Assembly (NCBI GenBank): GCA_902519075.1
Contig: CABYIO010000004.1
Span: 1 to 49,909 of the forward strand
From: an uncultured Bacteroidota bacterium
GTDB taxonomy: Bacteria > Bacteroidota > Bacteroidia > Flavobacteriales > Flavobacteriaceae
Length of the DNA stretch: 49,909 bases
Direction: 5' to 3'
A program made the position numbers and the translations under genes. Below are positions 43,602-47,678 of this stretch, piece after piece. The first letter of the stretch is position 1, and each line of letters opens with the position of its first letter. A model generated the notes under the pieces. That model had not been told where the DNA came from. It did not search any database and was given only the letters and a program-made list of their open reading frames with translations.

Positions 43602-44684
43602 TTAATTTTTTAATATTTTTTCTTGGTGATTTATTGATTCTTGATGAATTGCCTTGAAAACTTTTAAAATAAATTCTTCACTTAAGTTTTTTTCATCTCC
43701 CTCTAGAATCATTTTTCCTAAAATTTCGTTCCATCTTTTAGACTGTAGAACAGCAACATTATTTTTTTTCTTCAAAAGACCAATTTTTTCTGAAACCTTC
43801 ATTCTGTTTCCTAAGATATTGATTAATTGATTGTCATGAACATTAATTTGAGCTCTTAAATTATCTAAATTATCTAAATATACTTCATCATTATTTGTAA
43901 TCCTTCTTACTGTTAAGTTCTTCGTTAAATCTTTTAAATTTTGAGGTGTGATTTGTTGTTTTGAATCACTCCAAGCATTATCAGGATCATTGTGTGATTC
44001 AATCATAAGGCCATCATAATTTAAGTCTAATGCAGTTTGACATAAATCAAAAATTAAATCTCTTCTACCAGCTATATGTGAGGGATCAAGAATAAGTGGT
44101 AAATCAGGAAGTTTTCTTTGAAGATCAATAGCAATTTGCCATTCTGGATTATTTCTATATTTTGTTTTTTCATATGTTGAAAATCCTCTGTGTATAGCCC
44201 CAATATTTTTAATATTTGAAGAATAAAATCTTTCAATTGCACCCATCCATAAAGATAAGTCTGGATTAACTGGGTTTTTAATTAATACAATTTTTTTAGT
44301 CCCGCGAAGAGCTTCAGCGATTTCTTGAACAATAAATGGACTAACTGTAGTTCTGGCGCCAATCCACAGAATATCAATTTCATTTTTAAGTGCTAGATCA
44401 ACATGGTTTGCATTTGCAACCTCAGTGGTGGTTAATATTCCTGTTTCTTCTTTTACTTTTTTCATCCATTGTAGAGCCAAAGACCCAACACCTTCAAAAT
44501 TTCCAGGCCTGGTTCTAGGTTTCCATATTCCAGCTCTGAATACGGTTGTATCAGAATCTTTAAGTTGACGAGCAATATCCAAAACTTGATTTTCAGTTTC
44601 TGCACTACATGGGCCAGCAATAAAAAGTGGATGAGGAAGATTCATGTCATCTAACCATTTTCTCAAATTTTTATTATTCTTCAT
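43602..44684 (-). CDS. Bifunctional DAHP synthase/chorismate mutase
   Basis: A 360-residue fusion. Residues 1-255 form a KDPG-aldolase-like (AroF I-beta) DAHP synthase: PLFIAGPCSAETENQV, FRAGIWKPRTRPGNFEG, GAIHRGFSTYEKTKYRNNP and LILDPSHIAGRRDLI. Residues about 265-360 are an all-helical type II chorismate mutase (LDNLRAQINVHDNQLINILGNRMKVSEKIGLLKKKNN). It joins the first step of the shikimate pathway to the branch to prephenate. It sits directly after tyrA in the pheA-led run. The fusion is common in Bacteroidota. Confidence 0.95.
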   Translation of the reverse strand: MKNNKNLRKWLDDMNLPHPLFIAGPCSAETENQVLDIARQLKDSDTTVFRAGIWKPRTRPGNFEGVGSLALQWMKKVKEETGILTTTEVANANHVDLALKNEIDILWIGARTTVSPFIVQEIAEALRGTKKIVLIKNPVNPDLSLWMGAIERFYSSNIKNIGAIHRGFSTYEKTKYRNNPEWQIAIDLQRKLPDLPLILDPSHIAGRRDLIFDLCQTALDLNYDGLMIESHNDPDNAWSDSKQQITPQNLKDLTKNLTVRRITNNDEVYLDNLDNLRAQINVHDNQLINILGNRMKVSEKIGLLKKKNNVAVLQSKRWNEILGKMILEGDEKNLSEEFILKVFKAIHQESINHQEKILKN

Positions 44685-44685
44685 T

Positions 44686-45540
44686 TTAATTTATTCCTTT
44701 TAATATTGTTTTTATATAATTAGTTGATTTTAATTGCAATTCAATCTCATTAAATCTATCGTCTTTAATCAGGTTATTCACTTGAATTAAATTATCGATA
44801 TAATCATTTAATGATTTAATAATATTTTCTTTATTATCCTCAAATATATCAGTCCACATTTCTGGAGAACTTTTTGCCAGTCTAACTGTTGATTCAAATC
44901 CACTACCTGCCATATCAAAAATATTTTTTTCATTCTTTTCTTTATCCATAACGGTTTTTCCTAGCATGAAGGAACTCAAATGTGACAAATGTGAAACATA
45001 TGCAATATGTTTATCATGAGAATCAGGATTCATATAACTAATCTTCATTTTCATTAAATTAAATATCTTCAATGCAATTTCTAACTTGGATTTATTTGTT
45101 CTATGTTTATCACAGATAATTATATTTTTATTGGTGAATAAGCCTTTGTGTGCTGCTGTTGGTCCTGAAAACTCAGTTCCAGCGATCGGGTGGGTAGCTA
45201 AGAAGTTTTCACGATTTGGATGATCTTTAATTGCACTACAAATACTATTTTTTGTAGAACCAAAATCAATAACTAAGGTATTTTTATTGACCTTGTCCAA
45301 AATATTTGGAAGTAAATTAATTATGGATTTAACCGGGACTGAAACAAGAATAATGTCTGCTTCAGATATTTCTGAAATACTAGACTTTTTATCAATGACA
45401 CCTAATTTATAAGCTTTATTTAAGTTGTTTTCTGACTTATCTATTCCAATGATTTTTGTTTTTGGAAATAATTTTCGCATTTCGATTGCAAAACTACCGC
45501 CAATAAGCCCAATACCAATTATATAAATTTTCATTTTCAT
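44686..45540 (-). CDS. tyrA: Prephenate dehydrogenase
   Basis: A 284-residue NAD(P)-dependent enzyme that makes 4-hydroxyphenylpyruvate, the tyrosine precursor. It has an N-terminal Rossmann fold with IGIGLIGGSFAIEMRK, the catalytic-region phrase FLATHPIAGTEFSGPTAA and a helical C-terminal dimer domain (AYVSHLSHLSSFMLGKTV, FDMAGSGFESTVRLAKSSPEMWTDI). There is no fused chorismate mutase or ACT domain. The start overlaps the aminotransferase stop (ATGA), and the next gene begins 1 base after its stop. Confidence 0.95.
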   Translation of the reverse strand: MKMKIYIIGIGLIGGSFAIEMRKLFPKTKIIGIDKSENNLNKAYKLGVIDKKSSISEISEADIILVSVPVKSIINLLPNILDKVNKNTLVIDFGSTKNSICSAIKDHPNRENFLATHPIAGTEFSGPTAAHKGLFTNKNIIICDKHRTNKSKLEIALKIFNLMKMKISYMNPDSHDKHIAYVSHLSHLSSFMLGKTVMDKEKNEKNIFDMAGSGFESTVRLAKSSPEMWTDIFEDNKENIIKSLNDYIDNLIQVNNLIKDDRFNEIELQLKSTNYIKTILKGIN

Positions 45541-46679
45541 ATTCTTTCAATCGCCTTTTTAATATTAACTTCTGAATTACAAAGAGAAAATCTTACATAG
45601 CCCTCACCATTTGAACCAAATATAGAACCTGGAGCAATAAATATCCCTTTTTCATAAAGAAGATCATCAATATATTCTTTTGAATTTTTTATTGAATTAA
45701 TTTTAGCCCAAACAAACATTCCAGATGATTTTTTTGAATATCTACAATTTAATTTATCAGCCAATTTCCATACTAAATTTCTTCTCTTTGAATACTCATC
45801 ATTTAAATTTAAAAACCAATCTTTTGATTGACTTAAGGCTGATATTGCACCCATTTGTAAGGGATAGAACATCCCGGAATCTATATTACTTTTAACTTTT
45901 AAAATATTTGAAATAAAATCAGATTTTCCTACTGCAAAACCTAAACGCCACCCTGCCATGTTAAAACTTTTACTTAATGAATTCAATTCAATACAAACAT
46001 CTTTTGCCCCTTCTACATTCATAATAGAAAGAGGTCTATCACTCAAAATAAAGCTGTAAGGATTGTCATTGACAATTAAAATATTATTGTCTATCGAAAA
46101 ATTGACCAATTCTGAAAAATGTGAAATTGAAGCTCTTGCTCCAGTTGGCATATGAGGATAATTCACCCACATTATTTTAACATTAGATAAATCAAGATTA
46201 TTCAATTGCTTAAAATCAGGCAACCAGTTATTTTTTTCTTTTAAATCATAATATATTATTTCATTGCCAATCAATTTTGTTATTGAAGAATAAGTAGGAT
46301 AACCAGGATTTGGTATTAATACCTTATCATTTTCTGATAAGAATGACATTGAAATGTGAAAAATACCTTCTTTGCTGCCAATCAACGGTAAGATTTCGGA
46401 TTCAAAATCTAAATCGCAATTGTAATGAAGTTTATAAAACTTTGATATTTGCTTTCTATAAGCACTTATTCCTGTGTAACTTTGATATTTATGAGCTCCC
46501 CTTTTGTCTAATGACTCTTTTAATTTTTCAAGAGCCATGTTGGGGGGTGATAAATCAGGACTTCCAATTCCAAGATTTATAATATCTTTTCCAGAATCAA
46601 CTAAAGATTTTACCTCTCTGAGTTTTGAGGAAAAATAGTATTCACTTATGGAATTAAGTCTTTGTGAAAATTTAATCAT
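45537..46679 (-). CDS. PLP-dependent aminotransferase, probably aromatic
   Basis: A 380-residue fold-type I aminotransferase. The start at ATG 46679 (MIKFSQRLNSISEYYFSSKL) fits the family; an in-frame ATG at 46700 is possible. It has INLGIGSPDLSPPNMALE, the cofactor-region NPGYPTYSSITKLIG and the PLP lysine in NSLSKSFNMAGWRLGFAVGK. The end GSNGEGYVRFSLCNSEVNIKKAIERI is typical. Its place between pheA and tyrA suggests it turns phenylpyruvate and hydroxyphenylpyruvate into Phe and Tyr. The substrate is inferred from position. Confidence 0.9.
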   Translation of the reverse strand: MIKFSQRLNSISEYYFSSKLREVKSLVDSGKDIINLGIGSPDLSPPNMALEKLKESLDKRGAHKYQSYTGISAYRKQISKFYKLHYNCDLDFESEILPLIGSKEGIFHISMSFLSENDKVLIPNPGYPTYSSITKLIGNEIIYYDLKEKNNWLPDFKQLNNLDLSNVKIMWVNYPHMPTGARASISHFSELVNFSIDNNILIVNDNPYSFILSDRPLSIMNVEGAKDVCIELNSLSKSFNMAGWRLGFAVGKSDFISNILKVKSNIDSGMFYPLQMGAISALSQSKDWFLNLNDEYSKRRNLVWKLADKLNCRYSKKSSGMFVWAKINSIKNSKEYIDDLLYEKGIFIAPGSIFGSNGEGYVRFSLCNSEVNIKKAIERI

Positions 46680-47499
46680 CTTTAGAATTTTTATATTCAC
46701 CTAAAACTTTAAACTCTTTAGCCATAATTTCTACAATTGATTTTGCTTTCAGGTAATGTTCCTTAATATCAAATGTAACATCGACAAAAAAAGAATATCT
46801 CCATGGAGTTTGAATTTTTGGCATGGATTGAATCTTGGTTAAATTTAATTTACAGTCACTTAATACATTTAAAATAGTTGCTAGGCTGCCTCTTTTGTGG
46901 TCCAATTCAAACTTCAAAGATGCTTTATTGATATTTTTATTTTCTGAGGGTCTAATATTTTTAAGTATTACAAATCTTGTTTGATTTTTTTTAATGGTCT
47001 GTATATTTTCTTGAATTATTTCAAGGTCATAAGTTTTACATGCTAATTCGCTAGCAATTGCTCCCAAGCCTTTTACTTTATTATCGGCAATTTTTTTTGC
47101 AATTTGAGCTGTATCTTTTTCCTCCACAAGTGTTATATCAGAATTGTTTTTAAAAAAATCTCTGCATTGAAGAAGAGCCATTGGATGTGACTGAACTTCT
47201 TTGATATCTTTTAAAGATTGCCCCTTTAAAGCCATTAAATTATGTGTTATCTGAAGATAATACTCGCCAACTATATGGATGTCATATTCATCAATCAATG
47301 CGTAGTTTGGTATAATTGAACCAGCGGTAGAATTTTCTATTGCCATTACAGCATAATCAATTTTTCCGTTATTAAGATTATATATCATTTCTTCAAAAGA
47401 AAGGAATTCAGCTAAGTGAATTTCTTTTCCAAAATAGTTGTTTGCAACTATGTGGTGAAATGATCCTTTAATACCCTGTATTCCTATATTTTTTTTCAT
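46672..47499 (-). CDS. pheA: Prephenate dehydratase
   Basis: A 275-residue enzyme that converts prephenate to phenylpyruvate for phenylalanine synthesis. The ATG at 47499 (MKKNIGIQGIKGSFHHIVAN) is chosen; the frame continues upstream to 47529, but that part is the terminator hairpin of the leader. The catalytic domain has AVMAIENSTAGSIIPNY, EVQSHPMALLQC and KKNQTRFVIL. A C-terminal ACT domain (about 193-275, ELDHKRGSLATILNVLSDCKLNLTKIQS) suggests feedback inhibition by phenylalanine. There is no fused chorismate mutase. It heads the aromatic amino acid run and overlaps the aminotransferase by 8 bases. Confidence 0.96.
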   Translation of the reverse strand: MKKNIGIQGIKGSFHHIVANNYFGKEIHLAEFLSFEEMIYNLNNGKIDYAVMAIENSTAGSIIPNYALIDEYDIHIVGEYYLQITHNLMALKGQSLKDIKEVQSHPMALLQCRDFFKNNSDITLVEEKDTAQIAKKIADNKVKGLGAIASELACKTYDLEIIQENIQTIKKNQTRFVILKNIRPSENKNINKASLKFELDHKRGSLATILNVLSDCKLNLTKIQSMPKIQTPWRYSFFVDVTFDIKEHYLKAKSIVEIMAKEFKVLGEYKNSKDD

Positions 47500-47526
47500 A
47501 AAAAAAAAGTCCCGAAACTTCGAGAC
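47500..47526 (-). terminator. Attenuator terminator immediately before pheA
   Basis: On the minus strand GTCTCGA pairs with the facing TCGGGAC (one wobble U-G pair, loop of about four bases at AGTT). Nine T (47500-47508) follow and touch the pheA ATG. It lies about 150 bases past the gapN stop but 0 bases from pheA, which fits an attenuator better than a simple end of gapN. Confidence 0.75.
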
Positions 47527-47611
47527 CATATTTAATTTTATATAATTTAATTACAACAGCCCCTATTCCCCCTCAAAATAAAAGAAATAATAAGTATTAA
47601 GACTGTAGTAA
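47519..47611 (-). promoter_or_regulatory. Phe/Tyr attenuator leader: alternative RNA pairings
   Basis: Two pairings can be seen in the minus-strand RNA. First, UUACUACAG (47603-47611, leader codons 4-7) faces CUGUUGUAA (47551-47559) with one U-U mismatch. Second, UUUGAGG (47571-47577, leader codons 16-18) can pair over seven positions, two of them wobble, with UCUCGAA (47519-47525), the 5' arm of the terminator. The second pairing would prevent terminator formation. A ribosome held at codons 4-6 would leave it free to form; a ribosome finishing the leader would cover it. This logic is inferred, not measured. Confidence 0.5.
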
Positions 47612-47622
47612 AATAAATTCAT
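47563..47622 (-). CDS. Phe/Tyr-rich leader peptide of the pheA operon
   Basis: A 19-residue reading frame, MNLFYYSLNTYYFFYFEGE, with ATG at 47620-47622 and TAG at 47563-47565. Four residues are Phe and five are Tyr (9 of 19), in two clusters (FYY and YYFFYF). It lies between gapN and pheA, ends 37 bases before the terminator hairpin, and precedes genes that make exactly these amino acids. That combination is hard to explain by chance and is the classical sign of ribosome-mediated attenuation. No strong ribosome binding site is visible, which is normal for Bacteroidota. Confidence 0.75.
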   Translation of the reverse strand: MNLFYYSLNTYYFFYFEGE

Positions 47623-47678
47623 ATCAAATAATTTATTGGGTCTAATGTAAATAATATTTATCAAAAAAGAAAATTTGA

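Follow-up and report, generated by a model that had tools for sequence, protein, structure and literature searches.

A probable leader-peptide attenuator reading Phe and Tyr codons upstream of the pheA operon in Flavobacteriaceae, with counterparts in other Bacteroidia

We analysed a 49,909-nt stretch of DNA (the window) from an uncultured Flavobacteriaceae bacterium and found that the leader in front of pheA is very probably a ribosome-mediated transcription attenuator, in which translation of a short peptide would report on charged tRNA-Phe and tRNA-Tyr and control the pheA–aminotransferase–tyrA–DAHP synthase/chorismate mutase operon. Comparison with relatives established the leader open reading frame (ORF), its codon content, both alternative helices, their co-variation, the spacing between the parts and the operon behind them (Table 1). 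The Pfam and NCBIfam matches of the four downstream genes bore out the earlier assignment to Phe and Tyr synthesis, and the operon includes the first step of the shared pathway. An ATG at 47529, inside the terminator and in frame with pheA, was considered as the pheA start and rejected, as its frame is broken in 6/16 genus sequences. The window's genome also encodes a 585-aa protein (G000:C6:21692-22507) with two matches to Biopterin_H, the aromatic amino acid hydroxylase domain, and many Flavobacteriaceae are alike in this.

Table 1. Coordinates of the pheA leader, its promoter and the operon behind it, in window positions
Feature	Position	Strand	Description
Promoter -7 box, TACATTAG	47642..47649	-	flavobacterial consensus TAnnTTTG
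Leader ORF, MNLFYYSLNTYYFFYFEGE and stop codon	47563..47622	-	19-codon frame, ATG at 47622, stop codon ends at 47563; no indels in 16/16 genus sequences having an aligned frame
Segment 1, TTACTACAG	47603..47611	-	pairs with segment 2 in the minimum-energy fold
Control codons 11-16 (Y Y F F Y F)	47575..47592	-	best-conserved leader codons
Segment 2	47550..47563	-	first seven bases, GGGGCTG (47563-47557), form the antiterminator 5′ strand
Segment 3	47522..47528	-	antiterminator 3′ strand; overlaps the terminator 5′ arm, mutually exclusive
Terminator hairpin	47508..47527	-	stem 47527-47520 / 47515-47508, 8 pairs; loop 47519-47516 (4 bases)
Nine-T tract	47500..47508	-	abuts the pheA start codon; its first T is also the last stem base
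pheA, prephenate dehydratase with ACT domain	46672..47499	-	first structural gene; Pfam PF00800, E=1.1e-56
PLP-dependent aminotransferase, class I/II	45537..46679	-	Pfam PF00155
tyrA, prephenate dehydrogenase	44686..45540	-	Pfam PF02153 and PF20463; NCBIfam NF006307 above cut-off
DAHP synthase fused to chorismate mutase	43602..44684	-	Pfam PF00793 and PF01817

The leader lies on the minus strand, with an aldehyde dehydrogenase gene before it and pheA behind it, and 9 of its 19 residues are Phe or Tyr. Evidence from this single sequence is not decisive: Markov sequences modelled on the gap contained an equally F/Y-rich ORF in 22 of 5000 cases (0.4%), one short ORF elsewhere in the window had a higher F/Y fraction than the leader, and terminator-like sites in the 7.9 kb scanned numbered 2 against 2.2 expected in shuffles. 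It is conservation among relatives that marks the leader and terminator as a real element. The element was retained at 17 further pheA loci of the same genus, and the Phe/Tyr-rich frame of 19 codons singled out in the preliminary description was kept in every genus sequence with an aligned frame. In the genus alignment, codons 2–10 and 17–19 drift and codons 11–16 are the most conserved (F13 and Y15 in 16/16, F14 and Y11 in 15/16), the aromatic run being T-rich with a nearly invariant TTC TTT core. Among 153 distinct leader peptides from relatives, Phe makes up 23% and Tyr 16% of residues, both amino acids occur in 153/153, and Trp is present in 52%. The short ORF therefore carries a cluster of codons for the product of the downstream genes, that is, F/Y, or W or Y at loci where the product differs.

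An intrinsic terminator stands between the leader and the first structural gene in 18/18 genus sequences, all of which preserve the 8-pair stem, and in 101 of 105 non-duplicate Flavobacteriaceae pheA upstream regions, where leader, antiterminator and terminator occur together. The T-run hairpin had been described as ending exactly at the pheA ATG, and it does so, the ATG lying at 47499. The alternative pairing had been placed differently in the preliminary description, between leader codons 16–18 and the 5′ arm of the hairpin. A 7-pair match of this kind is indeed present in the window (47577-47571 / 47519-47525), but it is not conserved: 65% of genus cells pair, two central G-C pairs are found in only 2/18 and 4/18 sequences, and we rejected it as the antiterminator. 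The helix 47563-47557 / 47528-47522 took its place, with 99.2% of genus cells paired versus 26–52% when one strand was slid by one to three columns. Its 5′ strand begins on the final base of the leader stop codon, and its 3′ strand shares the terminator 5′ arm. In the window this antiterminator is weak, 4 of its 7 pairs being G-U, and the hairpin has a predicted energy of -6.6 versus -9.5 kcal/mol for the terminator.

Within the genus the antiterminator helix varies on one side only, so compensatory evidence had to come from the wider family, where compensatory pair types were found throughout. The five-base antiterminator core has 99.4% of family cells paired, versus 36–57% when slid. Core and 5′ arm occur in the combinations GAGAC or GAGGC with GTCTC, GGGAC with GTCCC, and AGGAC or AGGGC with GTCCT, and mispairing combinations are almost absent. 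One 5′-arm position forms T-A in 70 taxa, C-G in 26 and C-A never, and the following position forms C-G in 87 taxa and T-A in 10. Duplexes of the antiterminator strand with its own 5′ arm had a mean energy of -10.3 kcal/mol, versus -8.4 +/- 0.2 kcal/mol for swapped partners. Comparison of pheA upstream regions from relatives, of the kind that had been proposed as a check, recovered the aromatic codons, the T-run hairpin and their spacing as well as co-variation of antiterminator and terminator across the family.

These data bear on the proposal that the hairpin merely terminates the upstream aldehyde dehydrogenase gene, or is a fixed leaky terminator that the leader does not regulate. The aldehyde dehydrogenase gene does share the leader's strand and stops 57 nt short of the leader, and terminator-like sites are no rarer in shuffles, as such a proposal would have it; we nevertheless hold it to be highly improbable, since the terminator co-varies with a leader segment that would otherwise be idle, the same arrangement recurs before pheA, DAHP synthase and phenylalanine hydroxylase genes, and a conserved promoter box separates the leader from the upstream gene. 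The box, TAnnTT[TAC]G no more than 55 nt upstream of the leader start, was found in 96/98 taxa versus 34/231 (15%) control windows, and AAATATTATTTACATTAG around it is nearly invariant in the genus. The main text of the Flavobacterium psychrophilum transcriptome study gives the flavobacterial promoter consensus as TAnnTTTG at positions -12 to -5 (PMC9723704). Placed on this consensus, the box of the window implies a transcription start near 47637 and a 5′ untranslated region of about 15 nt.

Segments 1 and 2 of the leader pair with each other in the minimum-energy fold; the RNA folding suggested in the preliminary description gave a z-score of only -1.6 for the single sequence, which is not informative. 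Over 101 taxa, duplexes of segment 1 with its own segment 2 averaged -11.0 kcal/mol, versus -8.4 +/- 0.2 kcal/mol for swapped partners. For the window the segment 1:2 pairing is predicted, but in roughly half of the family RNA free of ribosomes is expected to fold into the antiterminator, so a protecting 1:2 helix is not uniformly present.

The arrangement suggests how the switch would work. If Phe or Tyr were short, a ribosome would stall with its A site in YYFFYF (codons 11–16), the control codons directly upstream of the antiterminator, and not, as previously proposed, in the FYY cluster of codons 4–6. The stalled ribosome would cover segment 1 and leave the start of segment 2 (47563-47557) free to pair with 47528-47522 once these bases had been made, and the antiterminator so formed would block the terminator and let RNA polymerase continue into pheA. 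If both amino acids were plentiful, the ribosome would reach the stop codon and cover segment 2, the terminator at 47527-47508 would form, and transcription would end in the T-run at the pheA start codon. In RNA whose leader is not translated, the segment 1:2 pairing would also favour termination.

The positions of the control codons fit this scheme, in that a stalled ribosome would free the antiterminator strand and a ribosome at the stop codon would cover it. In nearly all taxa the strand starts no earlier than 24 nt before the ORF end and no later than the final base of the stop codon, and the distance from the aromatic run to the antiterminator is 11–12 nt in 76 of 98 family taxa. A ribosome extends approximately this far past its A site, so a stall in the run would free the strand and any further step would cover it. 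When only the RNA ahead of the ribosome was folded, before the terminator 3′ arm exists, the predicted antiterminator probability averaged 0.95 over the family while the A site lay in the run, and dropped to 0 at the stop codon. For the window it was 0.27 at Y11, 0.54 at Y12, 0.97–0.99 at codons 13–16 and 0 from codon 17; the value of 0 beyond the run is a consequence of the assumed 12-nt footprint, whereas the spacing itself is observed. A thermodynamic simulation in which RNA behind the ribosome was also free to pair past it suppressed antiterminator formation, and this downstream-only folding was used in its place. At equilibrium the terminator was nearly always favoured in the full transcript, so the switch would have to be kinetic, with the choice made during transcription, as is likewise the case for E. 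coli attenuators. From this anatomy we infer ribosome stalling, actual termination or read-through, and the response to Phe and Tyr. Together, the F/Y run, the terminator, the co-varying antiterminator and the footprint-sized spacing strongly support the ribosome-mediated Phe/Tyr attenuation of the pheA operon that had been proposed from the window's DNA.

Typical leaders in the Flavobacteriaceae read MKTTNYTYYNWFYFFFSDKSEILYV or MSKQYFYNGFYFFFFFKRETGLL, each followed by a stop codon. A covariance model built from 39 sequences matched 81/100 family genomes, mostly once and, where the position of pheA was known, nearly always directly before it. Other matches in the window's own genome were weak (E 0.07–0.8), scoring like chance or plain terminators, and weak second matches in two further genomes (G038, G087) were discarded, as they lie behind unrelated genes and have no aromatic leader. 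In one further family case (L257 / L021, in G013) the attenuator sits farther upstream, about 0.6 kb from pheA, and extra DNA lies between the terminator and the gene. Beyond the family, many other families of Bacteroidia show this layout before pheA, with leaders such as MKLFNTYYFGYFYYFSKSRG, MHKQYTYTNFWFFYFYDKSRD and MKQICTFGLFYYFGFYYGDQSGRVCI, each again ending at a stop codon. The antiterminators differ strongly across the class (GAGCGGGA, GCCGGGGC, AACCGGGA, GAGCGGTC), yet each fits its own terminator. At 56 further loci, drawn from many other Bacteroidia families and further Flavobacteriaceae genera, cognate duplexes averaged -11.3 kcal/mol, versus -7.5 +/- 0.33 kcal/mol for swapped ones. 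Among the families examined, no attenuator turned up in one large family (f5) whose pheA is divergent or in the tiny 0.6 Mb genomes of f16, nor, among the examined loci, where pheA sits directly behind another gene; many genomes in the comparison are incomplete. Two genomes outside Bacteroidia also have an F/Y-rich leader and a terminator before pheA (L264, L265), and their PheA proteins are closer to those of Bacteroidia than the PheA proteins of their neighbours are; a transfer of the operon together with its attenuator is possible.

The leader codons were found to change where the pathway differs. Some Flavobacteriaceae genomes gave no pheA match, and almost all of those tested lack tyrA as well. 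Among genomes negative for pheA and tyrA, the leader before DAHP synthase contains Trp codons in 7/8 that have trpA and in 0/6 that do not (Fisher p = 0.005, uncorrected for phylogeny, several of the seven being close relatives and one, G033, appearing separate). Two genomes were left out of this comparison: G089, for a sub-threshold PDH_N match, and G062, whose tyrA was probably missed in a fragmented assembly, as the DNA upstream of its DAHP synthase gene encodes the end of a TyrA-like protein. Six of the seven leaders contain a Trp pair (CNWWLQ, NFWWHH, KAWWHM, LYWWHP, TIWWYI, NTWWSN) and the seventh a single Trp; at these loci (L305, L306, L308, L309, L311 and L317; L304 with one W) a terminator follows the leader and lies directly before the DAHP synthase gene. 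At another locus (L254 / L275, in G042) the leader MKNLNNTYYYYPILTRRIGQ, closed by a stop codon, has YYYY and no Phe, is accompanied by an antiterminator and a terminator, and precedes the gene for a 246-aa phenylalanine hydroxylase, the enzyme that makes Tyr. A genus-mate of the window's genome (L303, in G055) lacks pheA, the aminotransferase gene and tyrA between its aldehyde dehydrogenase and DAHP synthase genes, and its leader (MRLFSYNSQSFYFIS, with stop codon) has decayed, keeping FYF and a weak terminator and having lost the antiterminator.

Leader codons that follow the product of the downstream gene are what attenuation predicts, and would not be expected if the peptide or the RNA had a structural role. 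They also bear on whether the short ORF encodes a working hydrophobic micropeptide, an idea suggested by its conserved frame and length and its aromatic, membrane-like composition. We find this scarcely credible, as conservation is poor outside the aromatic run, F and Y interchange, and the run gives way to WW or YYYY where the following gene has a different product. A further alternative, which we judge unlikely, is that the switch senses only or mainly Phe, the Tyr codons being incidental to a U-rich, unstructured stretch that is wanted upstream of the antiterminator. Phe is the commoner of the two residues in the leaders, and the run is T-rich around its nearly invariant core, which is what such a switch would predict; it would not predict that every distinct peptide contains Tyr, that codon 15 is Tyr in all aligned genus sequences, that the phenylalanine hydroxylase leader dispenses with Phe, or that Trp-only genomes use TGG TGG, which is not U-rich. 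Leu, Ile and Ser codons could equally give a U-rich stretch, yet they are rarer.

Taken as one joint reading, these observations make it likely that the attenuator is ancient in Bacteroidia, that it acts as an OR gate for the charging of Phe and Tyr tRNAs, to which about half of the leaders add Trp, and that codon replacement has re-programmed it as the pathway changed. On the same reading the leaders probably form a re-programming series, with FY where both amino acids are made, WW before DAHP synthase in Trp-only genomes, YYYY before phenylalanine hydroxylase, and decay after loss of the genes. A leader similar to the Tyr-only one may exist in G089 (L276, MKTNRIYTIYMYTFYHRWRAR). Trp codons occur in 0/18 leaders of the window's genus (L013, L043-L059), versus about half of leaders elsewhere, and trpA was not found in two incomplete genomes of this genus; a link of W codons in the leader to Trp synthesis is possible.

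A search of the window against Rfam returned nothing at the gathering threshold except a tRNA, and near the element no credible hit appeared even with E values as high as 5. Judged by its layout, the element would work like a leader attenuator, but it matches no curated Rfam leader family or T-box. Riboswitches and T-boxes, too, are built from alternative structures with the terminator 5′ arm in common, and a translation-independent riboswitch, a T-box or a protein-bound leader might in principle govern the same terminator. To this we assign only a very slight chance: besides the Rfam result, the best-conserved element is a reading frame of aromatic codons with constant spacing to the antiterminator and with codons that vary along with the pathway.

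The regulation of amino-acid synthesis in Bacteroidota has been little studied. On the basis of Rfam models, a 2013 survey put forward the gamma-proteobacteria as the possible origin of amino-acid attenuators (PMC3766115). A class-wide attenuator in Bacteroidia speaks against a single recent gamma-proteobacterial origin, and the ancient OR-gate reading, if true, would argue against that suggestion (PMC3766115). The co-variation across the class indicates that ribosome-mediated attenuation is old and widespread in Bacteroidia too, in hosts that, according to the main text of the F. psychrophilum study, mostly do without Shine-Dalgarno initiation (PMC9723704). The FY, WW, YYYY and decayed leaders offer a natural series for testing which codons set the specificity of an attenuator, and leader codons would let annotators read which amino acids a strain makes.

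Ribosome-mediated attenuation is a textbook mechanism. The E. coli pheL leader has a Phe-rich ORF, a stop codon near the antiterminator 5′ strand and a terminator before pheA; it contains Phe codons and no Tyr codons and controls pheA alone, whereas in the window Phe and Tyr codons are interleaved and a single operon holds pheA, tyrA and DAHP synthase. Sensing of two amino acids by one leader had been called unusual in the preliminary description, but it has precedents in the E. coli thrABC (Thr/Ile) and ilvGMEDA (Leu/Val/Ile) leaders, each of which senses multiple amino acids that are all connected with what its operon makes. These leaders have multivalent reading in common with the window leader but read other amino acids and show no evident sequence relationship to it.

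The uORFC-13-1 motif upstream of aroF consists of an upstream ORF with a U-run coding for at least one Phe, beside an intrinsic terminator (RNA Biol 2021, PMC8632094). It resembles the present element in its upstream ORF, Phe coding, intrinsic terminator and downstream DAHP synthase gene, and differs in being known from 24 unique examples, only before aroF, with no more than a possible run of Phe codons; Bacteroidota are not mentioned in that paper (PMC8632094). The main text of the F. psychrophilum transcriptome study reports strong clues that leader peptides attenuate amino-acid operons, and describes ahead of pheA a structured 5′ element that is conserved in other genera and has no Rfam match (ISME Commun 2021, PMC9723704); the preliminary description had known of no described example from Flavobacteriia. 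That element precedes the same gene in the same family and, like ours, has no Rfam hit; it is very probably the same element. For pheA, the main text names neither a leader peptide nor an antiterminator, and states no amino-acid specificity or distribution (PMC9723704). The pheA element had thus already been noticed in outline, and what is new here is its anatomy, its distribution and the rewriting of its codons.
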